The position numbers and the translations under genes were made by a program. A stretch of 64,000 nt of DNA, from assembly GCA_029263715.1 (NCBI GenBank), contig JAJUFP010000001.1, forward strand, positions 226,837 through 290,836, in the 5' to 3' direction. Numbering within the stretch: the stretch's first letter is position 1; each line of letters opens with the position of its first letter. The notes beneath the pieces are model-generated. The model was not told where the DNA came from. It saw nothing but the letters and a program-made list of their open reading frames with translations, and did not search any database. This DNA comes from Nitrososphaera sp. (GTDB taxonomy: Archaea > Thermoproteota > Nitrososphaeria > Nitrososphaerales > Nitrososphaeraceae). Shown piece after piece: positions 26,729 to 45,785 of this stretch.

Positions 26729-26742
26729 TGCATTACACTGCA
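26729..26742. promoter_or_regulatory. TGCA-N6-TGCA palindrome upstream of the PII gene
   Basis: TGCATTACACTGCA, exact match to the repeated dyad. It lies 7-8 bp upstream of the likely TATA box of the PII gene and just outside the end of the 26749-27189 gene. Confidence 0.65.
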
Positions 26743-26748
26743 ATCGTT

Positions 26749-27189
26749 TCACAGGTTGCCTTCTTTGAGCAGCTGCAAGGATTGGTTGATGGACTTTCTC
26801 ACTTCTTCTAGAACTTCCAGGACCACCTTTTCTTCATCATCCTTTTCCCGCTGCTCTATCTCATTGTTGTAGTATTTCATCCACGAGTAGGTATGCTGCA
26901 GGTTTTCAAACAATGCAAAGGGGAGCAGGGTCTGCTTGCCTCCAAGTATTATGGAATCCCACATGTCTGTAAAGAATGGTTTGAAATCATGGTATTGTAT
27001 GGATTCGTCGATAAACCGCAGTTTTTTATTCAGGTCGTTGGTGACGAATTGGATGATCTGCTTTCTGTGTTTTCTTTCTTCTTTGCGGGTTATTTCCTTC
27101 TCCACCCGAAGCTCGATGTATATGGCGCCGTAGATGATGGCGGCTAGGATGATGTTCTCGATGATGATGACATCCCATTCTATCGGCAA
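26749..27189 (-). CDS. Membrane-anchored hypothetical protein (146 aa)
   Basis: One N-terminal hydrophobic helix (about residues 6-25) followed by a charged cytoplasmic helical region (ELRVEKEITRKEERKHRKQ) and a Glu-rich C-terminus. No family recognised. It is AT-richer than neighbours. A TATA-like TTAAAATATTAATATC (about 27219-27234) could serve it and the divergent CBS gene. Confidence 0.65.
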   Translation of the reverse strand: MPIEWDVIIIENIILAAIIYGAIYIELRVEKEITRKEERKHRKQIIQFVTNDLNKKLRFIDESIQYHDFKPFFTDMWDSIILGGKQTLLPFALFENLQHTYSWMKYYNNEIEQREKDDEEKVVLEVLEEVRKSINQSLQLLKEGNL

Positions 27190-27303
27190 CAGTGTTCACG
27201 TTGGCTATGCTTTCAGCTGTTTAAAATATTAATATCAAGATAGGGTACAGCGCGTTGCTCTGCAAACAGAGTTATTAAGAAGAACAGCCTTTATGGCAGA
27301 CCG

Positions 27304-27741
27304 ATGAGCGCAGTCAGCGAGATCATGTCAAGGGGCGTGATAACAGCAAACGTAGAATCCAACCCCTCTGTATTGGATATTGCCAACATGATGATAAAAA
27401 GCAAGGTCGGCTCCGTGGTGCTGTTTAAGGCCGGAAAACCAGCCGGCATCATCACTGAAAGGGATGTTATTAAAAAAGTCTCTTCCCTGAACAAAAAGCC
27501 GGGGGACATTCAGGCTGCAGACATTATGTCTTGGCCATTGATAACCATCAAGGCATACGATTCGGTCGATACGGCTGCCGCTCTTATGTCAAAGAACAAG
27601 ATCAAAAGGCTGCCAGTGCTTGAAACAGACGGCTCCATAGCCGGCATGCTGTCAGTCACAGACATTGCCAAAAGACTTGCCAAGATCTTGGCCGACGATT
27701 ACAACAGGTACCGAACACTGAAGGCTGCTTTGGATTTGTAA
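27304..27741 (+). CDS. CBS-domain pair protein
   Basis: A 145-aa protein made of two CBS domains (about 8-62 and 72-127), the adenine-nucleotide-sensing module. GIITERDVIKKV and ADIMSWPLITI mark the repeats. No effector domain is attached, so it probably regulates a partner or buffers ligand. It converges on the Hsp20-zinc-finger operon. No TGCA palindrome was found upstream. Confidence 0.9.
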   Translation: MSAVSEIMSRGVITANVESNPSVLDIANMMIKSKVGSVVLFKAGKPAGIITERDVIKKVSSLNKKPGDIQAADIMSWPLITIKAYDSVDTAAALMSKNKIKRLPVLETDGSIAGMLSVTDIAKRLAKILADDYNRYRTLKAALDL

Positions 27742-27748
27742 AGGCCGG

Positions 27749-27904
27749 TCAGTATTTTTCCTTTACCTGTCCTGTATGGCAGGTCCGGCAAGCTCCGCAC
27801 CATTCACATACGTGCACGGTTTCGGTGCCGCACTTGGCGCAGATGGTCTCCGGCCTGTGTTCTTTGACCTCGTGGTAGTTGTGGGGTTGTCGCATCCGCG
27901 TCAT
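27749..27904 (-). CDS. Small zinc-ribbon protein (51 aa)
   Basis: A short ORF with three Cys pairs: ICAKCG, CEWCGACRTCH, plus His residues at the N-terminus, a compact zinc-binding fold. ATG at 27904 overlaps the stop of the Hsp20 gene by 4 nt (27901-27904), so it is translationally coupled to a chaperone. Possibly an accessory to Hsp20; function unknown. Confidence 0.7.
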   Translation of the reverse strand: MTRMRQPHNYHEVKEHRPETICAKCGTETVHVCEWCGACRTCHTGQVKEKY

Positions 27905-28374
27905 TTGACTTGCACCCTGGTAACCGGTTTTCTGGCCTTGGGGGTTTTCTTTGGCAGCTCCAAGGTCAGTATGCCGTTGCTCATCCTGGCATTAACCTTT
28001 GACGGGTCTATCTCCTCTGGCATCGGTATCTTGCGATAAAAGGAACGGTAGGATCTCTCGTTGTAGATGTAATCCTTTTTCTCTGTCTCTGTCTTTTCAG
28101 AATGTTCGCCGGCTAGCTCCACGTAACCGCTGGTTGCCTTGACGTCTATCCTGTCCTTCTCAATGCCGGGGACCTCGACTTTTAGGTCGTATCTGTCGCC
28201 CTTGTCTGACATGTCGCAAAGTGGAACGCGGATATCGTCCAGCCGCGGGAAACGCCAGAGTTCAGGCCATGGCTTCATCATGCTATCTATTTCTTGCCTG
28301 AAGTCCTTAAAGATGTCGTCCAGCTTTGCTGGACGCGGTCTTGGGCGCTTGGCCAGTTTACCCTGTCTCGTCAT
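27901..28374 (-). CDS. Small heat-shock protein Hsp20
   Basis: A 157-aa alpha-crystallin protein that holds unfolding proteins in an ATP-independent way. The alpha-crystallin domain spans about residues 55-145: YDLKVEVPGIEKDRIDVKAT, then SFYRKIPMPEEID and NARMSNGILTLELPK, the A-x-x-x-G-I-L signature. ATG at 28374 is chosen over the longer ORF: an AAATACAAAATTC TATA-like box lies at about 28391-28400 (reverse), with the palindrome at 28414-28427 about 15 bp further upstream. Operon with the zinc ribbon gene downstream. Confidence 0.93.
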   Translation of the reverse strand: MTRQGKLAKRPRPRPAKLDDIFKDFRQEIDSMMKPWPELWRFPRLDDIRVPLCDMSDKGDRYDLKVEVPGIEKDRIDVKATSGYVELAGEHSEKTETEKKDYIYNERSYRSFYRKIPMPEEIDPSKVNARMSNGILTLELPKKTPKARKPVTRVQVK

Positions 28375-28413
28375 GCCCACATTACAATGAATTTTGTATT
28401 TGAAAGGTGGGTA

Positions 28414-28427
28414 TGCAGTGCAGTACA
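28414..28427. promoter_or_regulatory. TGCA-type palindrome between hsp20 and cupredoxin-like gene
   Basis: TGCAGTGCAGTACA, one mismatch to TGCA-N6-TGCA. It is centred between the divergent promoters: about 15 bp from the Hsp20 TATA on one side and from GTAAATATG (about 28442-28450) on the other. Confidence 0.6.
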
Positions 28428-28472
28428 TCGCGTTCCTTACCCGTAAATATGGGGAATGTAAAAGAGAACCGA

Positions 28473-28940
28473 ATGAACAGCCTGGCGCCAAGGTTAAAGA
28501 TCAGCGACGGAATGCTGGTTATCATCGCCGTAGTGGGATGCGTAGCTGCCTTTGCAGTATTGTTCATATACATCAGCGGCGGAGCCGTCAGGCATGTCTC
28601 CATATTCTTGCCGGAAAAGACGGAAAACACGCTGGCCTTCCGGGAAATAGACGGCCAGGTCAAGCTGGTGGGCATAAAGGGAATCGCGCAGGTCAACCCC
28701 ACCCTGATAATGAGGACCGGCGACTATTCGATGGAGCTTACAATAATCAATGAAGACGATCAGCCGCACATGCTTTACATAGACGGCGTTAACGTATCGA
28801 CCAAGTTTTTGCAGCCGGGGCAGCAGGACACCATATCGTTCCGTTCAGCAGGTGAGGCAACGTACAACTATTACGACTGGGGCACCGGAAGAGAACCGCT
28901 GGGCCAGATAATTGCGATGAAAGTCACTGCCTTTGAATAG
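28473..28940 (+). CDS. Membrane-anchored cupredoxin-like protein
   Basis: A 155-aa protein with one N-terminal membrane helix (about residues 13-35) and an extracytoplasmic beta-sandwich (NEDDQPHMLYIDGVN ... FLQPGQQDTISFRSAGEATYNYY). The fold looks like a cupredoxin, but the Cys and Met ligands of type 1 copper are missing, so copper binding is doubtful. ATG 28473 is chosen because GTAAATATG lies about 25 bp upstream; ATGs at 28407 and 28449 are alternatives. It shares its operator with hsp20. Confidence 0.65.
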   Translation: MNSLAPRLKISDGMLVIIAVVGCVAAFAVLFIYISGGAVRHVSIFLPEKTENTLAFREIDGQVKLVGIKGIAQVNPTLIMRTGDYSMELTIINEDDQPHMLYIDGVNVSTKFLQPGQQDTISFRSAGEATYNYYDWGTGREPLGQIIAMKVTAFE

Positions 28941-28957
28941 TCACTGCCTTTGAATAG

Positions 28958-29251
28958 CTATCTTAGCGGCAGTTTTCTGTCAAAATGCAGGGTGACGCCG
29001 CGCTTTTCATCCACTTCTACCGAGCACATCTCATCGATGGTCATAGTGACCCTTGATGTCTTGTTTTTGCAAAGCGGGCATGCCTTAATCAATCCCCTCT
29101 CGTTTATACAGGTGCTACACCAGAAACATACGTCACACATTTCCAGAACAACGTTTGGGAATGTCTCGCCGGTGATCTTTTTTTGCTTCGTGTTAAGGTC
29201 TTCATAAGGTGAAATCTGGCTTTCCGGAGACTCTTCCCCTTGATCTGCCAT
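28958..29251 (-). CDS. Small zinc-binding protein, paralogue of 57468-57689
   Basis: A 97-aa protein with a CDVCFWCSTC cluster (about residues 39-48), CPLCKNK (about 58-64) and a C-terminal DEKRGVTLHFDRKLPLR. The same layout (CFWC, CPxCK, DEKxGxxLxF) recurs in the gene at 57468-57689. TTTAATTAAATAG at about 29268-29280 (reverse) is a TATA box, and the palindrome at 29290-29303 lies about 10 bp beyond it. Function unknown. Confidence 0.75.
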   Translation of the reverse strand: MADQGEESPESQISPYEDLNTKQKKITGETFPNVVLEMCDVCFWCSTCINERGLIKACPLCKNKTSRVTMTIDEMCSVEVDEKRGVTLHFDRKLPLR

Positions 29252-29289
29252 GCTGATTCTTCGTCAACTATTTAATTAAACAATTTGAT

Positions 29290-29303
29290 TACAGTGCATT
29301 GCA
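29290..29303. promoter_or_regulatory. TGCA-type palindrome between zinc protein and usp
   Basis: TACAGTGCATTGCA (290-303), one mismatch to TGCA-N6-TGCA, with a second overlapping register TGCATTGCAATACA (29295-29308). Lies between two divergent TATA boxes. Confidence 0.6.
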
Positions 29304-29350
29304 ATACATTCAGAAACAATAAATGCACAATTCCATGCTTTTTCCTTAAA

Positions 29351-29809
29351 ATGGTTTCAAGGATTCTCTTGCCACACGACGGAACCGAGATGTCTGACAG
29401 GGCTTTGGACAAGGCAGTAGAACTTGCAAAGGCCCTCAAGTCTGAGATGGTCATCGTCCACATAGTAGACAGCCGATTCGTACCACCCAGCGCTACGCTG
29501 GGGTTCATCAGCGACAAGACCTCGCTGGAAGACGCCAAGGTTCAGCTGGTAAAGATACTGAAATCCGGCGCTGAGCAGATGCTAAACAACAGGATGGCCA
29601 AGGTCAAGGCAAGCGGCATCAGCGTGGACTTTGTTCTGGGCGTGGGCTCTCCCTCAGAAGAGATAGTCAAAATTGCCCGGAAGGTAAAGGCCGACCTCAT
29701 AGTCATGGGTAGCAGACAGCTGAGGGGCGGAAGCAAACTTAAGACACTTGGAAGCGTCGCCCGGCGCGTATCGGAGATAGCCGAGTGCCCAGTGATGATA
29801 ATACACTAG
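29351..29809 (+). CDS. Universal stress protein (UspA family)
   Basis: A 152-aa single Usp domain. ILLPHDGTEMSDRALDKAVE opens it and GSRQLRGGSKLKTLGSVARR near residue 125 is the ATP-binding loop (G-x2-G-x9-G-S/T), so nucleotide binding is likely. ATG 29351 lies about 27 bp after an AATAAATG TATA-like box. Its stop shares CTAG (29806-29809) with the convergent NTF2-like gene. One of five Usp genes in the window. Confidence 0.92.
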   Translation: MVSRILLPHDGTEMSDRALDKAVELAKALKSEMVIVHIVDSRFVPPSATLGFISDKTSLEDAKVQLVKILKSGAEQMLNNRMAKVKASGISVDFVLGVGSPSEEIVKIARKVKADLIVMGSRQLRGGSKLKTLGSVARRVSEIAECPVMIIH

Positions 29810-30174
29810 AGAAACTCTATGTGCAGGGCCTTTATTTTCTGGCGGGCGAGGTCCTTCGGATCGAACTCAAACGTAAAGCGCCCCTTTGCCCTGTCTCCTC
29901 TCTCAAAAGTAACCAGGGCAGTCACCCTGCCTGCGTCTGATGAGTGCCGCTCCAACTCTATCTTTCTGCGCATGTTGCTGTTGGCCATCATAGCCACCCT
30001 GAGGAATGGCTCTATGGCAGAGATTCCGTGCAAACCCTCGACCCTGCTGAAAGGCTCGTACACTATTGCATCGTTATCGAAGAGGTTGAGGAGGCCTTCC
30101 ATCTCTTTTTTCTCTATACACTTGAAGAATTGAAATACTAATCCTTCACTGCTGCTGAGGGTTTTCTTTGACAT
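29806..30174 (-). CDS. NTF2/SnoaL-like protein
   Basis: A 122-aa cone-fold protein: EGLVFQFFKCIEKKEMEGLLNLF is the typical first helix pair, followed by DNDAIVYEPFSRVEGLHGI. No catalytic residues can be assigned; many members bind small ligands. A TATA-like TTAATTATC at about 30213-30221 (reverse) lies about 13 bp from the palindrome at 30234-30247, placing it in the stress group. Confidence 0.8.
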   Translation of the reverse strand: MSKKTLSSSEGLVFQFFKCIEKKEMEGLLNLFDNDAIVYEPFSRVEGLHGISAIEPFLRVAMMANSNMRRKIELERHSSDAGRVTALVTFERGDRAKGRFTFEFDPKDLARQKIKALHIEFL

Positions 30175-30233
30175 TTTAATGATCTTCTGCCTTTGACCAA
30201 GACTTGGATCAATTGATAATTAACCTGTAGGAT

Positions 30234-30247
30234 TGCACTGTAGTGCA
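30234..30247. promoter_or_regulatory. TGCA-N6-TGCA palindrome upstream of the NTF2-like gene
   Basis: TGCACTGTAGTGCA, exact match with perfect 6-bp arms TGCACT/AGTGCA. Confidence 0.68.
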
Positions 30248-30261
30248 CTTGCACATGGTGT

Positions 30262-30873
30262 CTATCGGAGCATTACCTGTGCCACGGTGGTGTTCGGCGT
30301 GACGCTGATGTCTGCCCTGACGCTGGCCAGGTTCTCAAATATGATGGCCAAGAGCTCTTTTGTGAAAAGCGACCAGTTCTCGCCCAGGTCATGCTGTATC
30401 ACAAAGACGTGCTTGCTGGACCCCTCTATGCGATGATCGGATTTGATGCCGGATACCTTCATGTATTCCTCAAGCACTGAAAGCACGACCCAGAGGTTGT
30501 ACTGCTTCTTCATGAAGAGCACCGAGTCCTTCATGAGTGTAAAGGCTATCTGCGCTGACTGCTTTATTATCTCCATTCTGTAGCGCTCGATATCTTTGAC
30601 TCCGCCTATCTTGGCAACTTCTATGGCCTTGTCAATGAGTGTCGACAGTATCAGTTTTGGGACAGGCATCATTCCGATCTTGTTCTCATATCTGTCCCAC
30701 TCCGAGTATCTTTTGAGGACCTGGTTGACTAGAACGTTTAAAGAAATCTCTCTATTGTCGGATTCAGCCTGCAGCTCATCGATAACCGACGAGTCTATCC
30801 TGAATGTAACGCTGCGCGTCTTTTTAACCTGCTTGGTGCTCTCTGCGGCCCTTTCTCCGAAATTGCCGGACAA
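30262..30873 (-). CDS. Ribbon-helix-helix DNA-binding protein with long C-terminal domain
   Basis: A 203-aa protein. Residues about 21-60 (TRSVTFRIDSSVIDELQAES ... VLVNQVLKRYSEWD) form a strand-helix-helix RHH unit as in CopG/Arc/MetJ regulators. The remaining 140 residues are helical with VFVIQHDLGENWSLFTKELL at the end and look like a ligand or partner domain. It sits within the palindrome-rich region, so it is one possible regulator of that group, though its own promoter has no palindrome I could find. Confidence 0.75.
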   Translation of the reverse strand: MSGNFGERAAESTKQVKKTRSVTFRIDSSVIDELQAESDNREISLNVLVNQVLKRYSEWDRYENKIGMMPVPKLILSTLIDKAIEVAKIGGVKDIERYRMEIIKQSAQIAFTLMKDSVLFMKKQYNLWVVLSVLEEYMKVSGIKSDHRIEGSSKHVFVIQHDLGENWSLFTKELLAIIFENLASVRADISVTPNTTVAQVMLR

Positions 30874-31011
30874 CGTCTTGGGTTATTATCAATGTCCGTT
30901 AAAAGTATTTCATTTTTCTATGGCCCATGAGGCCTGCTGCCCTGTCTTGAAATCCGGTCAAAACCTGCAGTCTTGAAGTGCGGCTGGATAGGAGTTTGCC
31001 ACATGCAAACC

Positions 31012-31575
31012 CTACATCTGTCGAAGGTCTCCTTCCAAAAGGCCGCTTCCGATGTGCAGGCGATCGATATGCTTTGAAAGGTCCTCTTTGCTCTCAAAGA
31101 TGGACCCACAGTAGGGGCAGGCAATCTTGCCAGCGGCAGAGCCTGATGGCAGGTCCACCTCGGCCAGCTCTACGCTCTGGCTGGGAATGTTTCCAACGAC
31201 AGACCTGAGCGTTACAATGCCTATGATGCCATCCTTGCCGGCCACCGGCAGCCTCCTGATTCTCTTCTGCCTCATTACGGCCACCGCTTCCCTGACCTGG
31301 GCCGACTCGTTGATGGTTATGATAGGTGAGCTCATCACGTCCCTTAGCGGTGTCTTGAAAGGCCCTTTGTTCTCAGCAACGACCCGATAAAGGATGTCCC
31401 GTTCAGTGACTATGCCTACCAGATTCTTGGGGTCCTTTTGGCTCACAAGGACACTAGAGATATCCTTTTCATGCATTATCTTGACGGCTTCAGCAACTGT
31501 CGTAGATTCATCAAGAACTGTTATATTCTTATCCGCAACATCTGATACCTTCCTTTCAAGGAAATCTGTCTGCAT
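31012..31575 (-). CDS. CBS-pair protein with C-terminal C2H2 zinc finger
   Basis: A 187-aa protein: two CBS domains (about 10-65 and 73-128; GIVTERDILYRVV and DVMSSPIITI) and a C-terminal zinc finger CPYCGSIFESKEDLSKHIDRLH (Cys-x2-Cys, His-x4-His). The finger may bind DNA or protein, coupling adenine-nucleotide sensing to an output. ATG 31575 is preferred over 31629 since ACAATAAATC at about 31597-31606 (reverse) gives a leaderless start. Divergent from another CBS gene across the palindrome at 31615-31628. Confidence 0.88.
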   Translation of the reverse strand: MQTDFLERKVSDVADKNITVLDESTTVAEAVKIMHEKDISSVLVSQKDPKNLVGIVTERDILYRVVAENKGPFKTPLRDVMSSPIITINESAQVREAVAVMRQKRIRRLPVAGKDGIIGIVTLRSVVGNIPSQSVELAEVDLPSGSAAGKIACPYCGSIFESKEDLSKHIDRLHIGSGLLEGDLRQM

Positions 31576-31614
31576 ATAAGATGTCTGCCCAAAGCCTGAT
31601 TTATTGTATGTGTA

Positions 31615-31628
31615 TGCAGTGCAATGCA
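31615..31628. promoter_or_regulatory. TGCA-N6-TGCA palindrome between two CBS genes
   Basis: TGCAGTGCAATGCA, exact match; the overlapping core AGTGCAATGCACT (31618-31630) is itself a perfect dyad about one central base. TATA-like boxes lie about 10-14 bp away on both sides (31597-31606 and 31641-31650). Confidence 0.7.
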
Positions 31629-31671
31629 CTACAATCCCGGATGTAAAATATTGCCAGACCGGATGACGTGT

Positions 31672-32175
31672 ATGAGCATCGAGTCAATGCCGGTTTCAGC
31701 CATAATGACAAGGAATGTCAAGACCGCTAGGGCGGGTCAGACAGTTAAGACGGCTGCCAGGATAATGAGTGAAAACGGCATTGGAAGCATCGTCATTGTC
31801 AGGGACGATGCAGAAGACATCCCGGTTGGGATCGTTACAGAAAAAGATATCGTGAGGTTGGTCTGGTCCTCACAGAGCCTGGATATTTCCCTGCAGGAGG
31901 TTATGAGAAAACCGGTCATAACTGCAGACATTATGATGTCGATAAAGGACGCAATGCAGACCATGCAGGCAAAAGACATTCGGCGGCTTCCCGTGGTTGA
32001 AAAAGGCAGAATGGTTGGCATCGTGACAGAAAAGGACATCTTTAGGGCAATCCTCAAGAACCAGGCGCTTTTGACCGGCATAAGCAACGACGTGCTTTTA
32101 GAATACCGGCCTGCATACGAAAGGCTGACTGAGTTCATGTTAAGCGAGATATACTTCCCCGGTGGTAACCGTTAG
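31672..32175 (+). CDS. CBS-domain pair protein
   Basis: A 167-aa protein with two CBS domains (about 5-62 and 72-128; IPVGIVTEKDIVRLV and RRLPVVEKGRMVGIVTEKDIF) and a short C-terminal helical tail. ATG 31672 fits a GTAAAATATTG box about 25 bp upstream; 31663 is an alternative. First gene of a probable operon CBS-usp-APC permease, so it may regulate the permease in response to energy state. Confidence 0.9.
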   Translation: MSIESMPVSAIMTRNVKTARAGQTVKTAARIMSENGIGSIVIVRDDAEDIPVGIVTEKDIVRLVWSSQSLDISLQEVMRKPVITADIMMSIKDAMQTMQAKDIRRLPVVEKGRMVGIVTEKDIFRAILKNQALLTGISNDVLLEYRPAYERLTEFMLSEIYFPGGNR

Positions 32176-32177
32176 GT

Positions 32178-32600
32178 ATGGTCTCTAAGATTCTGGTGGC
32201 CGTAGACGGCTCGGAATGCGCAAGAAGGGCCTTTGATTCGGCGTTGAAGCTTGGAAAGGATCTTGGAGCCAAGGTGATCGTGATGACCGTCGTTCAGCCG
32301 CCCTCGATGATCACGATGCAAAAAGACCTACAGGGCACCATCGAGATGCTTCTTGAAAAGGAAGCAAAAATCCTGCTGGCCAACTATGGGACGATAGCAG
32401 AAAAACGTGGGGTTGACTTTGAGACCATACTTGCCATAGGCTACCCCTCAAGGGTAATACTCAATACAGCCGAAAGCAAGGGGGCAGACCTCATAGTGGT
32501 CGGGAGCAGAGGTCTGGGCGGCCTCAAGGAACTCTTCTTGGGCAGCGTTTCACACGCGGTAGTGCAAAATGCCGATATTCCTGTCCTCGTTGTCAAGTGA
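32178..32600 (+). CDS. Universal stress protein (UspA family)
   Basis: A 140-aa Usp domain with ILVAVDGSECARRAFDSALK at the start and VVGSRGLGGLKELFLGSVSH as the ATP-binding loop. Starts 2 bp after the CBS gene and is followed 4 bp later by the permease start, so the three are probably co-transcribed. Confidence 0.93.
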   Translation: MVSKILVAVDGSECARRAFDSALKLGKDLGAKVIVMTVVQPPSMITMQKDLQGTIEMLLEKEAKILLANYGTIAEKRGVDFETILAIGYPSRVILNTAESKGADLIVVGSRGLGGLKELFLGSVSHAVVQNADIPVLVVK

Positions 32601-32604
32601 TATC

Positions 32605-33915: not shown

Positions 33916-33961
33916 TGTTTATCTTGCTTTGTACGCCTACATACAGTGAGGCTCTGGAAAA

Positions 33962-35958: not shown

Positions 35959-36396
35959 CTAGGCATACGGCAGACCGCCCCCATTGCCGTTACCCAGGTA
36001 CTGCAGTATTTTGGACTGAATCTGCGGCTTTGATGCCACACCAACGAATCCGTCGACTGGCTGGCCGTTTTTGAAGATTACCACCGTTGGAATGCTCTGG
36101 ATGCCAAAGGAGCCGGCGACTCTTGGATTTTCATCCACGTTTAGTTTTCCGAATATTACCTTGCCGGCAAATTCTCCGGCAAGCTGCTCTATGGTGGGCC
36201 CAAGCATCCTGCACGGCCCGCACCACGGCGCCCAAAAGTCGACAACGATCAGGGGGTATTTCTGGATGGCCTGCTCAAAGTTTGAATCGGTTAGAGTAAA
36301 CGGCGCTGCGGCTATTCTTGGCGAATTGTTCTGTCTCTTGGCAAACCTCTTGTCTGCAAGTAATTTATCTAGTTCATCATCGTTTTCATATTGCAT
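35959..36396 (-). CDS. Thioredoxin
   Basis: A 145-aa thioredoxin with active site WCGPC (Cys59, Cys62), VDFWAPWC before it and the cis-Pro in QSIPTVVIFKNG. An N-terminal extension of about 35 charged residues precedes the fold. ATG 36396 is chosen; the longer ORF would run through the promoter. AAATATAAATATTAT at about 36433-36445 may act as TATA for this gene and for the divergent HTH gene. The palindrome 36392-36405 covers the start region. Confidence 0.93.
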   Translation of the reverse strand: MQYENDDELDKLLADKRFAKRQNNSPRIAAAPFTLTDSNFEQAIQKYPLIVVDFWAPWCGPCRMLGPTIEQLAGEFAGKVIFGKLNVDENPRVAGSFGIQSIPTVVIFKNGQPVDGFVGVASKPQIQSKILQYLGNGNGGGLPYA

Positions 36397-36416
36397 GGTC
36401 TTGCAATCACCGTGCA
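36392..36416. promoter_or_regulatory. TGCA palindromes between thioredoxin and HTH gene
   Basis: TGCATGGTCTTGCA (36392-36405) is an exact TGCA-N6-TGCA; TGCAATCACCGTGCA (36402-36416) has a 7-bp spacer. The second lies about 16 bp before the shared TATA region in the rightward direction. Confidence 0.58.
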
Positions 36417-36460
36417 ATACTATGCGTTTACAAAATATAAATATTATGGTATTGGCAAGA

Positions 36461-37456: not shown

Positions 37457-37495
37457 CACACAACGCTTTTTAGTTTAGGACCGCGTTTACTATGC

Positions 37496-37867: not shown

Positions 37868-37878
37868 AACAAACGTAG

Positions 37879-37892
37879 TGCACTGCCCTGCA
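37879..37892. promoter_or_regulatory. TGCA-N6-TGCA palindrome upstream of HTH-CBS operon
   Basis: TGCACTGCCCTGCA, exact match; extended arms TAGTGCA/TGCACTA (37876-37895) make a perfect 7-bp dyad. TATA-like ATTTTATT lies about 13 bp downstream. Confidence 0.7.
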
Positions 37893-37936
37893 CTATATTC
37901 CTACATTTTATTCCGTTGATGAGCATAAAGTCATAC

Positions 37937-38899: not shown

Positions 38900-38940
38900 C
38901 CTGATGACCATTCTCCGCCGCTAAAAGTGGATATTTGGAA

Positions 38941-38954
38941 TGCAGTGTAATGCA
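38941..38954. promoter_or_regulatory. TGCA-N6-TGCA palindrome upstream of the 39000 gene
   Basis: TGCAGTGTAATGCA, exact match, about 16 bp before the TATA-like TTAAAAG at about 38969-38976. Confidence 0.68.
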
Positions 38955-38999
38955 GAATATTCTTACTGGTTAAAAGACTAGCTCTCTATCATTGTTATT

Positions 39000-39200
39000 A
39001 TGGTCTGCAAGGGAAAATGCGTCATCTACAAGACCTTGGCCAGGTATTCTGACGGCCGTAAACGCTGCCAGGTATGTGACGTCTTTATCCGCTGGAACGG
39101 TATGCGTTGCCCATGCTGCGGCTTTGCGCTAAGAACAAAGGCGCGAACGACAAAAAAGACACTGCAGGCTAAATACACTCCAGTCTTGAGGCACGCATGA
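39000..39200 (+). CDS. Small Cys-rich zinc-binding protein (66 aa)
   Basis: A basic protein with paired Cys: CKGKC at the N-terminus, CQVCDVFIRWNG and CPCCGFALRTK, a layout I associate with a widespread small archaeal zinc protein. The basic C-terminus suggests nucleic acid binding. ATG 39000 is about 27 bp after a TTAAAAG box, so the transcript is probably leaderless. Converges on the wHTH gene at 39203. Confidence 0.8.
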   Translation: MVCKGKCVIYKTLARYSDGRKRCQVCDVFIRWNGMRCPCCGFALRTKARTTKKTLQAKYTPVLRHA

Positions 39201-39202
39201 TC

Positions 39203-39595
39203 CTACAGTTTTATTTTAGATAAAAGTTCGTCTGCGTGCAACTCGCCCTTCTTTGTCAGCAGGTAGAGTTCTTCTCCTTCCTTGTTCTGGCCGGCTTTTT
39301 TGACAAACCCCTTTTTGACAAGCCTTCCACTAAAGTTGCCGCCCTCAAACCAGCTGCCGTAGGACTTGCCACAGTCGCCTAGGATTGCCTTTATTTCAGC
39401 CTTGGTCTGATTGGGCTTTATCCTTAAGGCAAGGATGACGAGATCCTGGGTTCCTATCTTGTCAACGTTCCCAACAACAAGACTTGTTACGTCCTGCTTC
39501 TCTGCTGGTGATTTTTTGTAGACAGCGCCTTCAAGACGCTCAACGCGCTTTTCCAGATCCTGGATTATCTTCTCTAATTCAGGGATGTCCAACAT
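39203..39595 (-). CDS. Coiled-coil winged-helix protein (130 aa)
   Basis: The N-terminal 25 residues are a leucine-repeat coiled coil (LEKIIQDLEKRVERLEGAV), followed by a winged-helix-like domain (about 50-128; NQTKAEIKAILGDCG and GELYLLTKKGELHAD-type ending). A DNA-binding dimer is likely. Target unknown. Upstream lies a small dyad GCCCTA/TAGGGC at about 39622-39640. Confidence 0.72.
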   Translation of the reverse strand: MLDIPELEKIIQDLEKRVERLEGAVYKKSPAEKQDVTSLVVGNVDKIGTQDLVILALRIKPNQTKAEIKAILGDCGKSYGSWFEGGNFSGRLVKKGFVKKAGQNKEGEELYLLTKKGELHADELLSKIKL

Positions 39596-39808
39596 TCCTA
39601 TTGAAATTGCAGTTGTACTTAAGCCCTAACTTTTGTAGGGCTTCATTGATGCATACCCATCTGATTATATACAATACTGCCGTCAGATTTTTGTGGAGCC
39701 GCATCCTATTCAAAAAATGATGACATCGAAGCGGCCTTGCTGCGGCAGCGGTGATGGGAAATAGAGACGTTTGCTCCACAGGATCCCAGTAAAGCCAGCT
39801 GGCATGCC

Positions 39809-42454
39809 ATGGACAGGGACAATGTGCTGTCCACGCTTCAAACAAGCATGGATGGGCTTTCAGAAGACGAGGCCAAACGGAGGATATCTTTGTATGGCTA
39901 CAACGAAATTTCAGAAGAGAAAAAGCCATCGCCTTTTGCGGTATTTGCAAAGCAGTTCAAAGAGCCGCTGATAGCCATACTGCTTGCTGCAACTGTCATC
40001 TCTGCCATTCTTGGGGAAGTCGTCGACGCCGTCATCATAATGGTCATAGTGGTCCTGGCCGCAGTGGTAGGCTTTGTCCAAGAGTTCCGGTCAGAAAAGG
40101 CAATAGCGGCTCTAAAAAAGATGGCAGCGGCATCCTGCCGTGTAATAAGGGGTGGCGAGGAAAAGACTGTCGATGTCCGAGAGCTGGTACCAGGAGACAT
40201 CATAATCGTCTCATCCGGTGACCGGATATCTGCCGATTCGTACCTGCTTGAGTCCTTCAACCTGCAGGTGGACGAGGCGCCGCTTACCGGCGAATCGATG
40301 CCAGTTTCAAAAACTCCATGCACTCTGCCTGTGGATACGCCGGTGGCAGACAGAAAAAACATCCTATACACCTTGACGGCTGCAACCTACGGCCATGGGC
40401 GGGCCGTGGTCTTTGCCACCGGGATGAGCACGCAGCTAGGCAAGATTGCAGAATTGGTGCAGACAATAGACACGCAAAAGACGCCCTTTGAGATCAGGAT
40501 GCGGCAGACCGGCAAGATCCTCAGCGTGATAATGCTGGCTGTCGTGGCCATCATCAGTATAGTGGGATTCTTTAGGGGCCACCATCTAATAGAGATGCTG
40601 GTCTGGGCAATAAGCCTGGCAGTGGCCGCCGTCCCAGAAGCGCTTCCTGCAGTGATAGCGACCTCGCTGACCCTTGGCGTCTACAGGATGGCAAAACAAA
40701 ATGCCATCGTCCGGCGGCTGCCGGCTGTTGAAAGCCTTGGATGCACGACGGTGATATGCAGCGACAAGACCGGCACGCTGACCAAAGGCGAGATGACCGT
40801 TCGCAAGATCTACATTTACGACCATCTGTCAGAAGTGACCGGCTCGGGATACTTGCCGGATGGGAAGATAGTCTCAGCCGACGGCCCGCCAAACAAAGAC
40901 GATCTGGAAATCCTTGCCAAGTGCGCATTGCTCTGCAACGATGCAAGCGTCAAGATAGAAAACGGCAAGGCTACTGTTGCAGGGGATCCAACCGAGGCCG
41001 CCCTGGTGGTCCTGGCTTCCAAGGCCGGTCTGGATAGAAAGCAGGCAAATTCCCAGTTCCCGCGGGTGCATGAAGTCCCCTTTTCCTCGGAAAGAAAAAT
41101 GATGACCACGGTGCATCAGACCGGAGACGTTTATCAGGCATTTACAAAAGGCGCCGTGGAGGTTGTTCTGGACCGCTGCAAGGCCCTGCGTTCTGGCGGC
41201 AGGCTCCTGGACATGGGCCTGGACAAAAAGTCCAGAATAATCCAGGTCAACAACGAAATGGCCCGAGTCGGCCTGCGGGTTCTGGCCCTGGCATACAAAG
41301 ACCTAGAGGACAACAGTTTTTCCGAGCTGGAAAACGACCTTGTCTTTATTGGCCTGGTTGCGATGATGGATCCGCCTAGGCCTGAAACCATCGACGCAGT
41401 GGCACAGTGCAAGAGCGCCGGCATCGATGTTGTCATGATAACCGGCGACCACAGCTTGACGGCGGCATCTGTTGCAAAAGAGATCGGCATAGCAGACAAC
41501 GGTTCTGTCATGACGGGCACTGATCTGGAAAAGGTGGATGAAAAAGAGCTGGCTGAACAGGTGCAGAACGTAAAAGTGTACTCGCGGGTCTCGCCGGAAC
41601 ACAAACTCAAGATAGTGCGCTCCCTCAAATCCAAGGGCAACGTGGTGGCAATGACCGGCGACGGGACAAACGATGCGCCGGCTCTCAAGGCCGCAGACAT
41701 CGGCATTGCCATGGGGATAACCGGCACGCAGGTAGCCAAAGAGTCCTCTGCCATGGTGCTAGCTGATGACAACTTTGCCACCATAGTTGGCGCAGTGGAG
41801 GAGGGAAGACGGATATTTGATAACGTCAAGAAATACCTTGTCTACCTGCTCTCAGCCAACATCAGCGAGATCCTAGTCTTAACCTTCTCGGTGATGATGG
41901 GCTGGCCCTTTCCTCTGCTGGCAAAGCACCTACTTTACATCAACCTGGCCACCGATGGCTCGCCGGCCATCGCTCTTGGGTTGGAGCCGCGGGAGCCAGA
42001 CGTGATGAAAAGAAAACCACGGCGTCTAAAGGAAGGCGTCTTTTCCGGTGTAACCTGGCTGATAATTGGAATTTCTATAATCCTCTCTGTAACAACACTT
42101 TCGCTGTTCTGGGCAGTCCTCGAGTCGGAAGGATGGCAGTCAGAGGCCGCCGTTTCCAAAGCTAGAACCATGGTGTTTGGGATGTTTGTATTCTTTGAGC
42201 TCTTTTTTGCACTGTCGTGCCGATCGCTTAGGCACAACCTACCAAGGATGGGTTTGTTCACAAACAAGGCCCTGCTTTACTCCTTGATTGGCGAATCATT
42301 GGCAGTGCTTTTCATCATGAACCATCCGTTCATGCAGAGCGTGTTTGACCTTGCCCCCCTTGGGGCCTTTGACTGGGTGCTGCTGATGGCACTGTCAACT
42401 ACGGGATTCATCTTCACCGAAGTAGCAAAGCTTGTCATGAAAAGAAAGGCCTGA
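39809..42454 (+). CDS. P-type cation ATPase (P2A, Ca2+-type)
   Basis: An 881-aa pump with ten hydrophobic segments expected for the P2 group. DKTGTL phosphorylation site (CSDKTGTLTKGEMT, about residue 315), the LTGES dephosphorylation motif, PEALP in helix 4 (calcium site I/II region), MTGDGTNDAPALK hinge and NLATDG in helix 6 are visible. The PEALP and NxxTDG motifs favour Ca2+ (or Mn2+) over Na+/K+. Full length, intact. No TGCA site was found upstream; a TATATAC lies at about 39665. Confidence 0.92.
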   Translation: MDRDNVLSTLQTSMDGLSEDEAKRRISLYGYNEISEEKKPSPFAVFAKQFKEPLIAILLAATVISAILGEVVDAVIIMVIVVLAAVVGFVQEFRSEKAIAALKKMAAASCRVIRGGEEKTVDVRELVPGDIIIVSSGDRISADSYLLESFNLQVDEAPLTGESMPVSKTPCTLPVDTPVADRKNILYTLTAATYGHGRAVVFATGMSTQLGKIAELVQTIDTQKTPFEIRMRQTGKILSVIMLAVVAIISIVGFFRGHHLIEMLVWAISLAVAAVPEALPAVIATSLTLGVYRMAKQNAIVRRLPAVESLGCTTVICSDKTGTLTKGEMTVRKIYIYDHLSEVTGSGYLPDGKIVSADGPPNKDDLEILAKCALLCNDASVKIENGKATVAGDPTEAALVVLASKAGLDRKQANSQFPRVHEVPFSSERKMMTTVHQTGDVYQAFTKGAVEVVLDRCKALRSGGRLLDMGLDKKSRIIQVNNEMARVGLRVLALAYKDLEDNSFSELENDLVFIGLVAMMDPPRPETIDAVAQCKSAGIDVVMITGDHSLTAASVAKEIGIADNGSVMTGTDLEKVDEKELAEQVQNVKVYSRVSPEHKLKIVRSLKSKGNVVAMTGDGTNDAPALKAADIGIAMGITGTQVAKESSAMVLADDNFATIVGAVEEGRRIFDNVKKYLVYLLSANISEILVLTFSVMMGWPFPLLAKHLLYINLATDGSPAIALGLEPREPDVMKRKPRRLKEGVFSGVTWLIIGISIILSVTTLSLFWAVLESEGWQSEAAVSKARTMVFGMFVFFELFFALSCRSLRHNLPRMGLFTNKALLYSLIGESLAVLFIMNHPFMQSVFDLAPLGAFDWVLLMALSTTGFIFTEVAKLVMKRKA

Positions 42455-42474
42455 GACTGCGCGTATAGGAGCAA

Positions 42475-42488
42475 TGCTTTGCATTGCA
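42475..42488. promoter_or_regulatory. TGCA-type palindrome upstream of the small ORF-usp operon
   Basis: TGCTTTGCATTGCA, one mismatch to TGCA-N6-TGCA; a wider perfect dyad GCAATGC-TTT-GCATTGC covers 42471-42487. TATA-like CATTAATG lies about 13 bp downstream. Confidence 0.62.
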
Positions 42489-42518
42489 GAGCATACCTCT
42501 GGCATTAATGCACAAACT

Positions 42519-42656
42519 ATGTTAAAGTCAGTGATGGTTAGTCCCGAGACTGCATCTAGTGTTAACATCGAATGCGCTGCTTACAACCGCACCTTGCAGG
42601 TGTTTTCTACGGATCGCTTAACTATGACGTCAACCTTGGTTAAGCAGGTGAGCTGA
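42519..42656 (+). CDS. Small ORF preceding usp (45 aa)
   Basis: Starts at ATG 42519 (or GTG 42531/ATG 42534) about 25 bp after a TATA-like box and ends TGA directly before the TTG start of usp. Composition is unremarkable (SPETASSVNIECAAYNRTL) with no family. It may be a real small protein or a leader ORF for the usp gene. Weakly supported by the promoter geometry. Confidence 0.4.
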   Translation: MLKSVMVSPETASSVNIECAAYNRTLQVFSTDRLTMTSTLVKQVS

Positions 42657-43103
42657 TTGTCATCAACGTCCATCAAAAAGATACTTTTGCCCATAGACGG
42701 CTCTGACTCCTCTATGGATGCTGCCAGATACGCTGTCAGTCTGGCAGCCATGTCTGGATCAGAAATACTTTGCATTCACGCGGTGGTAAGTCTGCCATAC
42801 GCCGAACACAAAAGCGGCGGCGCACTTCTGGCCACGTACCTGGAAGAGGCAAAGAGACATGCGGACCAGTGGTTTGACCAGGTCAAGGAGATGGCCAACA
42901 AGGCTGGTGTCAAGGTAACCTCCGAAACACTCCTTGACGTGGCGTCCATAGCCGATGTCATCATAAATTACGCCGCCTCACACCAAGCCGACCTGATAGT
43001 CATAGGTACCAGGGGCAGGACCGGTCTGAAGCGTTTTCTGCTTGGAAGCGTTGCCAGCGCCGTGGTATCACATGCTGCATGCCCTGTTCTGGTGGTAAAA
43101 TGA
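42657..43103 (+). CDS. Universal stress protein (UspA family)
   Basis: A 148-aa Usp domain: ILLPIDGSDSSMDAARYAVS at the start and VIGTRGRTGLKRFLLGSVAS as the ATP-binding loop. Start TTG 42657 immediately follows the TGA of the small ORF. The alpha/beta-hydrolase gene follows 41 bp later. Confidence 0.9.
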   Translation: MSSTSIKKILLPIDGSDSSMDAARYAVSLAAMSGSEILCIHAVVSLPYAEHKSGGALLATYLEEAKRHADQWFDQVKEMANKAGVKVTSETLLDVASIADVIINYAASHQADLIVIGTRGRTGLKRFLLGSVASAVVSHAACPVLVVK

Positions 43104-43144
43104 GGCGCGATCTACAGAGACCGTTTGGGGGTGCTTGATTCAAA

Positions 43145-43798
43145 ATGCCTGAACGTGCTGTCAAGATCTCCATTGGCAAGATAACACTGGAAGGGGATCT
43201 TGTCATACCAAAAAATGCCCCTGGCATCGTGCTGTTTGCCCATGGAAGTGGGAGCAGCCGGCACAGCTCAAGAAACCGCTACGTGGCAAGGGTTCTTCAG
43301 GACGCTGGCCTTTCAACGCTGCTGTTCGACTTGTTGACAAGGGAGGAAGAAGCCGTCGACCAGTACACCATGCATCTGCGGTTTGACATCCCACTTTTGG
43401 CACAGCGGCTGGCCGGCGCAACGAAATGGATCTTGGAAAATGAGGATACCAAACATCTTGGTGTGGGGTATTTCGGAGCCAGCACCGGCGCGGCCGCTGC
43501 CCTTGTGGCGGCTGCGGCAAACCCTGCTCCCGTAAGGGCAGTAGTCTCGAGGGGTGGCCGGCCAGACCTGGCCGCCGACGCGCTTCCCCGCGTGCAGGCT
43601 CCCACCCTCTTGATAGTGGGCGGCGATGACGAACCGGTCATTGATCTGAACAAAGAAGCGATGAGCAAGATGAAGGCAGAATGCAAACTTGTTATTGTTC
43701 CGGGAGCCACGCACCTCTTCGAAGAGCCCGGAAAGTTGGAGGAGGTAGCCGTCCTTGCAAGGGACTGGCTCAGCCAGCATCTGCGCCGGCAGGCATAA
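43145..43798 (+). CDS. Dienelactone-hydrolase-like alpha/beta hydrolase
   Basis: A 217-aa alpha/beta hydrolase. The nucleophile Ser113 is in GYFGASTGAAAA, Asp161/162 in VGGDDEPV and His190 in GATHLFE. In several bacteria this hydrolase is fused to the phosphoribosyltransferase represented here by 45027-45716, so the two may share a function; that function is not known. It is convergent with the adenosine-specific kinase gene (4 bp between stops). Confidence 0.85.
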   Translation: MPERAVKISIGKITLEGDLVIPKNAPGIVLFAHGSGSSRHSSRNRYVARVLQDAGLSTLLFDLLTREEEAVDQYTMHLRFDIPLLAQRLAGATKWILENEDTKHLGVGYFGASTGAAAALVAAAANPAPVRAVVSRGGRPDLAADALPRVQAPTLLIVGGDDEPVIDLNKEAMSKMKAECKLVIVPGATHLFEEPGKLEEVAVLARDWLSQHLRRQA

Positions 43799-43801
43799 TG
43801 G

Positions 43802-44284
43802 TTATTTCTTGTATCCAATGTCTCTTAGGAACTGTTTTCTTTGATGGATCTCTTTTTCGCCCTCAATACCCTTGGGCCTGAAGCCGTCGACTACGCCAAG
43901 TATCGCCCTTCCCTGAGGGGTTTCAGCGACAACCACCTGCACAGGATTGGATGTGGCACAAAACACACTTGCTATCTCTGGCACCTCCTTGAGTCTTGGC
44001 AGCACATTGATGGGGTATGCGTCCTTTATCAGTATCAGAAGGCTGTGACCTGCCCCGATAGTGTAGATGTGGTCTGCTGCAAGGCCTTCAAGTTCCTTGT
44101 CGTTGCCGTCATGCCTGACAAGGCAGGGCCCGCTGGCCTCGCAGAACGCGATTCCAAATTTTATGCCGGGGACGCAATTGACCATGCATTCAAAAACATC
44201 CTCGACTGTCTTGATAAAGTGGCTCTGGGCCAGTATCAGCTGAACTCCTTCTGGTGGTTTTATCTCTACACTGTGAAATTCCAT
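43802..44284 (-). CDS. Adenosine-specific kinase-family protein
   Basis: A 160-aa protein matching the archaeal adenosine-specific kinase family (formerly DUF355): MVNCVPGIKFGIAFCEASGP, HIYTIGAGHSLLILIKDAYP and VCQVVVAETPQGRAILGVVDG-like blocks are typical. Members phosphorylate adenosine to AMP. ATG 44284 is chosen: GCTTAAATCG at about 44307-44315 (reverse) gives a leaderless start, with the perfect palindrome 44328-44341 about 13 bp further upstream. Confidence 0.85.
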   Translation of the reverse strand: MEFHSVEIKPPEGVQLILAQSHFIKTVEDVFECMVNCVPGIKFGIAFCEASGPCLVRHDGNDKELEGLAADHIYTIGAGHSLLILIKDAYPINVLPRLKEVPEIASVFCATSNPVQVVVAETPQGRAILGVVDGFRPKGIEGEKEIHQRKQFLRDIGYKK

Positions 44285-44327
44285 TGAACAAGTATCGTGT
44301 CGCTGCGATTTAAGCAACATGCACGGT

Positions 44328-44341
44328 TGCAATGCATTGCA
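44328..44341. promoter_or_regulatory. Perfect TGCA palindrome between adenosine kinase-like and small basic genes
   Basis: TGCAATGCATTGCA, a fully self-complementary 14-mer and exact TGCA-N6-TGCA. Lies about 13 bp from TATA boxes on both sides (44307-44315 and 44353-44361). Confidence 0.75.
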
Positions 44342-44386
44342 GTATGTTCTTATACGATAAATAAGGTAGAGTGGTGTGTTTGCACA

Positions 44387-44554
44387 ATGACAAAGAAAAG
44401 CTTGGTAGATGAATCACGCCTGTCACCGGAAGAGGCCAAGGATATGGAGCTGGACGAGCAGCCAAAGCCAACCCGAAAAGAGGGAAGGTCCACGACCCCG
44501 TCGCCAGAATCGACTGCGCACAAGAAAATGAAGGGCACAAGAAAGAACCGGTAA
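44387..44554 (+). CDS. Small charged protein (55 aa)
   Basis: A short, hydrophilic, probably disordered protein: acidic first half (ESRLSPEEAKDMELDEQPK) and basic end (HKKMKGTRKNR). ATG 44387 lies about 27 bp after GATAAATAA. Followed 11 bp later by a Usp gene, so it is the promoter-proximal member of a two-gene unit. Function unknown. Confidence 0.65.
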   Translation: MTKKSLVDESRLSPEEAKDMELDEQPKPTRKEGRSTTPSPESTAHKKMKGTRKNR

Positions 44555-44565
44555 CAAGATGCAAA

Positions 44566-45030
44566 TTGAGTTACAGAACAATTCTTGTTCCCTACGATGG
44601 ATCCAAGCCCTCAGACGATGCCCTTGACCGGGCAATCGAACTTGCAAGCAGCATAAAAGAAAGCCGCATCGTGCTTGTCTACGTAGTTGAAGAGATTTCT
44701 TTTCCGCTAAGCAAGTACTCGCTGCGGCTGCCTTCCAACAAGACGATAAAGGAGAACCTAGAAAGGCTATACGGGGCCATGGAAAAGGACGGCCTTGAAA
44801 CCCTTGAAAAGAAAAAGCAGCAGTGCGAGGCCGCCGGTGTGCCGGCAAAAGTCCTGGTGCTTCGAGGCCGGCCTGCAGAACAGATCATATCCTGCGTGGA
44901 GCAGGAAAAGGCCGATCTTGTGGTGATGGGAAGCACGGGACTTTCGGGAATCTCAAAACTCAAGACCCTGGGCAGCGTCTCACGTAAACTTTCAGAACGC
45001 CTTTCCTGCCCTGTGATAATCGTGCATTAA
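44566..45030 (+). CDS. Universal stress protein (UspA family)
   Basis: A 154-aa Usp domain: ILVPYDGSKPSDDALDRAIE at the start, VMGSTGLSGISKLKTLGSVS as the ATP loop. Start TTG 44566. Its stop TAA shares TTAA (45027-45030) with the stop of the convergent phosphoribosyltransferase. Confidence 0.92.
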   Translation: MSYRTILVPYDGSKPSDDALDRAIELASSIKESRIVLVYVVEEISFPLSKYSLRLPSNKTIKENLERLYGAMEKDGLETLEKKKQQCEAAGVPAKVLVLRGRPAEQIISCVEQEKADLVVMGSTGLSGISKLKTLGSVSRKLSERLSCPVIIVH

Positions 45031-45716
45031 GCCGTGCCGGGTCTGTACTTGCTCATTATCTCTACAACTTCTTCGTCGCTGACCTGTGTGAAATCATGGT
45101 AGAACTCGCCCACCGCGCCAAAGATGGCCGGTGAGTGCAAGACCATCACCTCGCCGGCTACCTGCTTTAGCGCAAACACTGTCTCCCTTGGACCAACGGG
45201 TATGGCCACTATCAGCCTCTTCAGTCGCTGGTTTTTTAGCCAGTTTATGGCTGCAAACATGGTCGCTCCAGTGGCAATGCCGTCATCTACCAGTATTACC
45301 ACCCTGCCTTCAAGGTGGTATTCCTTGCTTCCCCTGAACCTGCCAAGGCGGCGCTCTATTTCTTGCATCTTTTCTGTTATCTGATCGCTGATGTATTTGC
45401 TTGAGACTCCCAGCATTCTGATTATGTCCGTGTTGGGGAAAAAACTTCCGTCATGCATGACTGCGCCGATAGCCAGTTCCGGGTTTTCAGGCGCCCCTAT
45501 CTTTTTTGATACAATGACATCCAGATCTGCGTTCAGGCGGGACGCTATTTCGTCTCCGGTGACTACGCCGCCCCTTGGGATTGCTAAAACTACCGGCCTT
45601 TCTTCTTCAAAAAGGGGTGAATACTTTTCCTTGAGTTTCTCTGCCAAAAGGACCGCAGCCTCTCTTCTGTCATTGAAGATCAGCCGCCGATACGGGTTGT
45701 CGCCGTCTGTTTTCAT
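45027..45716 (-). CDS. Phosphoribosyltransferase-family protein
   Basis: A 229-aa type I PRTase. The PRPP-binding motif VVILVDDGIATGATM (about residues 132-146) is intact; VLAIPRGGVVTGDEIA and DLDVIVSKKIGAPENPELAIG are typical of the subfamily that is often fused to a dienelactone hydrolase in bacteria. The natural base is unknown. ATG 45716; TTTTAAAATAAAG at about 45754-45764 (reverse) with the palindrome 45772-45785 beyond it. Confidence 0.88.
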   Translation of the reverse strand: MKTDGDNPYRRLIFNDRREAAVLLAEKLKEKYSPLFEEERPVVLAIPRGGVVTGDEIASRLNADLDVIVSKKIGAPENPELAIGAVMHDGSFFPNTDIIRMLGVSSKYISDQITEKMQEIERRLGRFRGSKEYHLEGRVVILVDDGIATGATMFAAINWLKNQRLKRLIVAIPVGPRETVFALKQVAGEVMVLHSPAIFGAVGEFYHDFTQVSDEEVVEIMSKYRPGTA

Positions 45717-45771
45717 GATTTCACTTCGTTTTACTAATCGATAACGACTCCCTTTATTTTAAAAGTATGTA

Positions 45772-45785
45772 TGCACTGAATTGCA
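45772..45785. promoter_or_regulatory. TGCA-N6-TGCA palindrome between PRTase and NAPRTase
   Basis: TGCACTGAATTGCA, exact match. TATA-like TTAAATAAT (about 45800-45808) lies about 16 bp on the NAPRTase side. Confidence 0.68.

Follow-up and report, generated by a model that had tools for sequence, protein, structure and literature searches.

What reads the TGCA repeats that lie upstream of stress and energy genes in a 64-kb stretch of the genome of the archaeon Nitrososphaera sp. (assembly GCA_029263715.1, contig JAJUFP010000001.1, positions 226,837 to 290,836; hereafter the window)? The window comes from a genome of 1.92 Mb in 14 contigs, and an initial annotation of its sequence had described the palindrome TGCA-N6-TGCA as a motif shared by the promoters of a stress and energy regulon. 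Our analysis revealed that most of these copies belong to a larger, 25-bp palindrome of four TGCA boxes that lies beside the promoter at a preferred distance from the TATA box. We estimate a probability of about 0.5 for the complete explanation, namely that one dedicated factor, including the regulator named below, controls a Nitrososphaera stress and energy regulon through these operators.

The coordinates given for nine exact and three one-mismatch copies of TGCA-N6-TGCA were all correct, and a tenth exact copy (60196) had been overlooked. The chance rate given with them, about one exact copy per 64 kb, was an underestimate; dinucleotide shuffling of the window sequence yielded 2.41 copies (sd 1.56, maximum 7), and none of 100 shuffles reached the observed 10. 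The sites are therefore real and in excess in the window, but TGCA-N6-TGCA is only part of the unit. Genome-wide the N6 form occurred at 75 places compared with ~72 predicted for 1.92 Mb from the window shuffle rate (2.41 per 64 kb), and with no enrichment it was dropped as the motif itself.

Most N6 copies hold a third, in-phase TGCA inside the six variable bases. Searches with TGCAnTGCAnTGCA, allowing at most one mismatch, returned 14 matches at 11 separate places in the window compared with 0.43 expected, and 45 matches in the genome compared with 1 when the pattern was reversed and 16 when its boxes were set 6 bp apart. Applied to the whole genome, the window shuffle rate would attribute ~13 of the 45 to chance. 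Sorted by TATA distance, measured from the end of the 14-mer, the sites fell into a 9-bp and a 14-bp class whose flanks were mirror images. A one-sided motif with a TTC tail proved to be one side of a larger palindrome, and the two TATA spacings proved to be an artefact of using three of the four boxes, as they merge at +19 from the dyad. The full unit is the 25-bp palindrome GAWTGCAnTGCAWTGCAnTGCAWTC, with four TGCA boxes at 5-bp steps, of which the inner two are the strongest (93-98% conservation compared with 66-85% for the outer boxes; 148 intergenic sites, both arms averaged). Ten 25-mers in the window matched at least 17 of the 23 consensus positions, every one of them intergenic, compared with ~0.5 expected under a first-order Markov model; this count is partly circular because the consensus was built from sites that include these ones. 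The sites are almost certainly operators of some factor, and the 25-bp site is very probably the docking site of a hitherto undescribed gene regulator.

Against this consensus the N6 copies at 14726 and 60196 scored 14/23 each and the copy at 36392 scored 15/23. These three and the copy at 30234 were absent from the motif-model matches in a first look that scored 150 of 817 candidates, and nothing supports 14726 or 36392 beyond the N6 match. The 36392 copy overlaps the called start of a thioredoxin gene and lies inside a longer open reading frame (ORF) there, so that the 12 copies, all described as intergenic, are not all clearly so. In the intergenic region between the thioredoxin and TrmB-like genes (window positions 36384-36426; L164 positions 2242-2266), and also in genome G015, TGCA-like boxes are clustered in another arrangement; this cluster is possibly a different, related element.

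Comparing the frequency of the motif inside and outside genes had been proposed with the initial annotation, and the result favored its promoter assignment. The 45 genome matches, all of which lay in the window or in the further stretches analysed, merged to 38 places, of which 34 were intergenic, three within genes and one partly so, even though 76% of the examined DNA is coding according to a simple hexamer gene caller (binomial P = 2.5e-17). In stretches of related genomes, picked for exact sites or for the candidate regulator gene, 75 of 76 exact sites were intergenic. The few in-gene places, together with some others, are probably chance matches.

Promoter geometry was then read from the dyad. 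Of 115 gene-facing sides, 53 had a TATA 8-mer that started exactly 19 bp from the dyad (10/26 in the window's genome and 43/89 in relatives), compared with 10 in the largest bin of 50 shuffles; the TATA weight matrix was trained on the same promoters and carried no position prior. The exact +19 TATA was also found on sides without a near facing start (6/44 and 34/137). With TATA fixed at +19, the palindrome abuts the TFB recognition element (BRE): the palindrome arm ends at +12, the BRE slot covers +13 to +18 and the TATA box +19 to +26. Distances of 45 to 54 bp between dyad and start codon were the most frequent (11 of 26 sides in the window's genome, 46 of 89 in relatives), and the transcripts of site-bearing promoters are probably leaderless. 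The spacing of 10-16 bp to TATA reported earlier does exist, as 9 and 14 bp, and becomes a single spacing once the dyad is correctly placed. One copy of the palindrome can serve two divergent promoters, with TATA at +19 from the dyad.

The operators in the window are given below, with scores as matches out of the 23 consensus positions and E values from the motif-model search.

26721-26745: operator upstream of the PII gene (- strand, start 26693, 40 bp from the dyad); 18/23, E 0.42.
28411-28435: operator between an Hsp20 gene (-) and a cupredoxin-like gene (+); 18/23, E 0.115; TATA in the 14-bp class.
29287-29311: operator between a Cys-rich 97-aa ORF (-, start 29251) and a universal stress protein (Usp) gene (+, start 29351), the divergent starts 48 and 52 bp from the dyad; 21/23, E 3.2e-4.
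30231-30255: weak operator (the N6 copy at 30234), downstream of the candidate regulator gene and upstream of a SnoaL/NTF2-like gene (-); 16/23.
31612-31636: best operator of the genome, between divergent CBS genes (starts 31575, -, and 31672, +; 49 and 48 bp from the dyad); 21/23, top match, E 8.4e-5.
37876-37900: operator upstream of a gene for a 60-aa helix-turn-helix (HTH) protein, followed by a CBS gene; 17/23, E 0.13.
38938-38962: operator upstream of a 66-aa Cys-rich ORF (39000-39200, +, start 50 bp from the dyad); 19/23, E 0.0029.
42472-42496: operator upstream of a Usp gene (TTG start 42657, 173 bp from the dyad; Usp42.7); 19/23, E 8.4e-4.
44325-44349: operator between an adenosine-specific kinase gene (-, start 44284) and a small ORF plus Usp gene (+); 19/23, E 0.031.
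45769-45793: operator between a phosphoribosyltransferase gene (-, start 45716) and NAPRT (+); 18/23, E 0.061.

The window targets comprise PII, three Usp, three CBS proteins, two Cys-rich small ORFs, the adenosine-specific kinase, the phosphoribosyltransferase and NAPRT, together with a cupredoxin-like protein (under the Pfam cut-off) and a SnoaL-like protein (just under the cut-off). Targets outside the window include Hsp20, an M50 protease with CBS domains, Usp genes, a cupredoxin behind one Usp, a P-type ATPase, DUF371, a CDC48-type AAA ATPase, a nitroreductase, a 2-oxoacid:ferredoxin oxidoreductase and a four-CBS protein; one window Usp and the Usp genes elsewhere were identified by eye. 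Many of these are stress, energy-sensing or nucleotide-salvage genes, which agrees with the regulon claimed at the outset, and the regulon theme is stress tolerance combined with the sensing and salvage of adenylates, NAD and nitrogen status. The two Cys-rich small ORFs (39000-39200, +, and 28958-29251, -) were skipped by the hexamer gene caller, and their starts lie 50 and 48 bp from the dyad. Because both of these missed ORFs sit at the operator-typical distance, operator geometry may help to find small genes. Good operator copies at L069, L072 and L074 mark places where small genes or RNAs may hide.

Comparison of orthologous promoters, the other check proposed for the motif, also spoke for it. 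In islands of eight related genomes, the orthologues of site-bearing window genes had a site no more than 160 bp upstream in 41 of 55 cases, compared with 12 of 63 for orthologues of window genes without a site of their own. Orthologues were reciprocal best matches among window proteins, two cases cut by the end of a stretch were excluded and divergent pairs were counted twice; Usp42.7 and Usp44.6 are in the site-bearing set, with their window site >160 bp away. The strongest operator (31612) was retained at its two CBS genes in 8/8 and 7/7 islands and the 29287 operator at Usp in 6/6. Retention was 4/5 at PII (26721), 6/8 at the promoter orthologous to that of the weak 30231 operator and 2/3 for the 37876 operator, and a nearby site was retained at Usp42.7 in just 1/6. 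The adenosine-specific kinase site was retained in the one island that has this gene, and the 45769 site was kept at the phosphoribosyltransferase (1/1 island) but not at NAPRT (1/1).

The distribution of sites differed between genomes. All 13 exact sites of G011 (2.83 Mb) fall within 28.6 kb. In 5/5 genomes checked of genus g2 (of 15), one place per genome passed E 0.3, and it always lay upstream of a PII gene. In G044, from another family, the sole exact-match place is at a locus with an HTH-like ORF (identified by eye), a CBS protein and an orthologue of the candidate ribbon-helix-helix (RHH) regulator, ~1.4 kb from the gene of that orthologue. Motif counts in order-level relatives (9 compared with 69 for the 6-bp-spacing control in G037, 5 compared with 103 in G058) were left unused because the control exceeds the motif there.

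Which protein binds the operators? Two genes behind the strongest operator are relevant to this question.

30262-30873 (-): candidate regulator, 203 aa, with a probable RHH start and a modelled C-terminal domain resembling V4R/TRAPP/H-NOX.
31012-31575 (-): gene for a CBS plus zinc-finger-like protein upstream of the candidate regulator (gene order, Pfam).

The CBS gene and the regulator gene probably form one operon driven by the 31612 operator, and the regulator gene, which follows the CBS gene with the strongest operator, may itself be expressed from there. In 8/8 islands the regulator gene itself lacked a site within 160 bp of its start. On the basis of its sequence and distribution we give the 30262-30873 protein an even chance of being the regulator of these operators. 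Its closest match among named genomes is an 89% identical protein in a Nitrososphaera metagenome-assembled genome. Sub-threshold RHH-type Pfam matches were obtained for the window protein and for 9/9 relatives and paralogues scanned, among them matches to HicB and BrnA, which we take to be RHH-type families. The AlphaFold2 model (mean pLDDT 73) contains helices at residues 28-41 and 45-65, and its C-terminal domain resembles domains of TRAPP (TPC6), H-NOX, YslB and PoxR/MopR; Foldseek with the domain model gave a probability of 1.00 to TPC6 (E 0.002), H-NOX (E 0.0028) and PoxR (E 0.0074). Searches of the PDB with the candidate sequence gave nothing useful. That the protein senses a small molecule is conceivable from the modelled fold, though we regard it as a tentative suggestion.

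To relate the gene to the sites, site numbers were counted in each genome as motif-model matches at E up to 1 on both strands. A close orthologue (E < 1e-60) was present in 40 of 70 genomes of the family. In genus g1 this analysis revealed 15-71 matches in the nine genomes with the orthologue compared with 0-4 in the nine without, several of the latter being incomplete (65-87%). Similar contrasts were observed in g3 (11 compared with 2), g6 (4-14 compared with 0-5) and g8 (12 and 38 compared with 2-12). Excluding g1, a within-genus permutation of orthologue presence against match number gave P = 4e-5, with genomes treated as independent, which they are not; G093, which carries a fragment of the gene, was scored as lacking the orthologue in both this and the exact-site test given below. 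In G075, 3/3 close copies of the gene have an exact site within ~2 kb. The candidate gene was also present in the stretches around sites in all 15 genomes compared, whereas three HTH proteins of the window island were found in 4, 1 and 1 of the 15; this comparison is biased, as several stretches were chosen around the candidate gene. A second close copy of the regulator gene occurs in G008:C15 (8151-8744, -), with one in-frame TGA, near an exact operator.

Several observations weigh against this assignment or against the wider explanation. All of the RHH-type Pfam matches are under the Pfam cut-offs, the RHH strand is not formed in the AlphaFold2 model and residues 1-20 have pLDDT <50. Designed proteins rank first in the Foldseek results, TM-scores by query are 0.37-0.46, and neither Pfam nor NCBIfam gave a V4R, TRAPP or H-NOX sequence-profile match for the C-terminal fold. 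For exact sites outside g1 a plain Fisher test gave P = 1 (within-genus permutation, P = 0.0008), and the contrast was clearer with motif-model matches. Genus g12 has the orthologue in 6/6 genomes, yet five have no model matches and one has two, while G033 (22 matches) and G027 (14) lack a close orthologue. The contrast in g10 is weak, with 19 and 30 matches in genomes with the orthologue and 3, 17 (G093) and 22 in those without. Any core gene of the island would track site number, and island co-inheritance gives the same picture. At the level of the promoters, the best TATA lay off exact +19 on 62 of 115 facing sides, and several intergenic sites (L069, L072, L074) are >300 bp from any called start codon.

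These points bear most directly on the possibility, which we put at a little short of even, that the operator is real but bound by another factor, an unlinked HTH protein or an RHH paralogue, with the 30262 protein a co-inherited island gene. The near absence of sites in g12 and the sites without the gene in G033 and G027 fit this alternative, as do the several HTH genes that adjoin sites (the 60-aa HTH, TrmB-like and HVO_0163-type genes). The protein family is also expanded, with 8 matches in the window's genome (the candidate included) and 19 in G015 (E up to 0.001), and the five paralogues looked at share an F-R strand motif; a paralogue could therefore be the binder, and other RHH-like members of the family may read related operators. 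Set against it are the within-genus association of the candidate gene with site number, the short distance between gene and site in G044 and G075, and the few stretches that hold the other HTH genes of the window island.

If one dedicated transcription factor binds the 25-bp operators and controls the stress and energy regulon, the bound factor would sit beside TFB, leave TATA uncovered and be able to reach a promoter on either side, and such reach would suit divergent gene pairs. The candidate would act as a one-component sensor in which a probable RHH domain is joined to a probable ligand-binding domain, with an oligomer reading the TGCA boxes. Boxes 10 bp apart share a helix face and the intervening ones are offset by half a turn, an arrangement that would call for a wrapped oligomer or for alternating contacts. 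The factor would most likely activate transcription by assisting the recruitment of TFB or TBP. This direction of control, inferred from the site lying directly upstream of BRE and TATA, is likely, and a position just upstream of BRE/TATA fits activation by archaeal activators in the part of the literature drawn on here (PMC5937170).

Repression is the less favored direction, and we consider it unlikely. Here the bound protein would touch the BRE edge and hinder TFB until stress releases it. The palindrome ends directly at the BRE slot, so that a footprint could reach the BRE, and RHH proteins such as CopG repress; however, the BRE was somewhat weaker at 46 promoters with a site than at 45 without by one of two measures (P = 0.015 for the best of three registers, P = 0.16 for a fixed register). 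A general promoter or chromatin-protein element with no dedicated regulator would account for the constant position relative to TATA, yet the genome has no more than 38 such places, which cluster at a functional set of genes and in one island, and the sites are nearly absent from 9/18 genomes of the same genus, which leaves this explanation highly improbable. Slimmest of all is the chance that base composition produced a coincidental cluster of a common palindrome: the lack of genome-wide N6 enrichment and the places in genes are in its favor, but it is contradicted by the shuffles, the spacing control, the intergenic placement, the fixed TATA spacing and the conservation.

Two further observations concern the window as a whole. 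A tRNA at 17247-17382 (-) has an Rfam match spanning 136 bases and was missed by ARAGORN with the bacterial code; from this span it probably contains an intron. A search of a plasmid collection with one window region gave no match.

Binding of RHH proteins to short boxes, repeated or palindromic, is cooperative, and the CopG operator contains two TGCA boxes. CopG itself is small, acts as a repressor and lacks a sensor domain, whereas the candidate has a long C-terminal domain and the operator has four boxes at 5-bp steps. The DosR dormancy regulon of Mycobacterium holds Hsp20, a CBS protein and a P-type ATPase; it belongs to another domain of life and has a different operator, and the resemblance is one of gene content only. 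Further shared content, as given in part of a published account, comprises phosphoribosyltransferase, nicotinamide recycling, nitroreductases, universal stress proteins and the Rip3 metalloprotease (PMC5309233).

Palindromic operators upstream of the BRE are already a known kind in archaea. The portion of the TFB-RF1 study drawn on here (Pyrococcus furiosus) describes weak BREs, activation by TFB recruitment and, as in our case, a palindrome just upstream of BRE and TATA at a conserved distance, although that palindrome has 13 nt (TCTGAANTTCAGA) and two ChIP-seq targets (PMC5937170). The operator described here has 25 bp, four TGCA boxes and many targets, often with two divergent promoters; the likeness is one of site layout. 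CopR of P. furiosus likewise controls a multi-gene regulon in which nearly every regulated promoter carries a semi-palindromic motif immediately upstream of the BRE, but that motif is TTNNCAWWWTGNNAA and the function is in copper; this comparison was by motif (PMC7830388). Copper-limitation motifs in Nitrososphaera viennensis, of the same genus, lie at -35 to -70 from start codons and one is conserved in two related species, but their sequences are TTCSGSMTTTGWACYANT and RATTTAAABATAGATTTAAATAATAAS and other genes are named in the part of the study consulted (PMC7785015). In open-licence papers, mostly screened superficially, no description of the 25-bp TGCA motif was found, nor in that open-licence literature a stress regulator or operator of ammonia-oxidising archaea with this motif. 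The new elements are the arrangement of the boxes, the mirror symmetry of the promoter geometry and the candidate regulator.

In its fullest form our preferred explanation, that a dedicated factor acts through these operators, would describe a new archaeal one-component family (RHH plus a V4R/H-NOX-like sensor) that switches on a dormancy-like regulon in soil ammonia oxidisers, with one oligomer on four TGCA boxes driving two divergent leaderless promoters; this we advance as possible but doubtful. The extent of such a regulon would range, with the same reserve, from one PII operator in g2, through the 28.6-kb island of G011, to a few dozen places genome-wide in the window's organism. The 5-bp box array, and the mirror symmetry with which a pair of probably leaderless promoters uses it, are also relevant to the contacts that activators in archaea make with TFB and TBP. 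Ammonia-oxidising archaea rank among the major nitrifiers, and the conserved tie to PII, CBS, Usp and NAD salvage suggests that energy, nitrogen or redox state exerts the control. Taken together, a precise operator, a fixed geometry, a target list and a named candidate make the starvation and stress response of ammonia-oxidising archaea directly testable.

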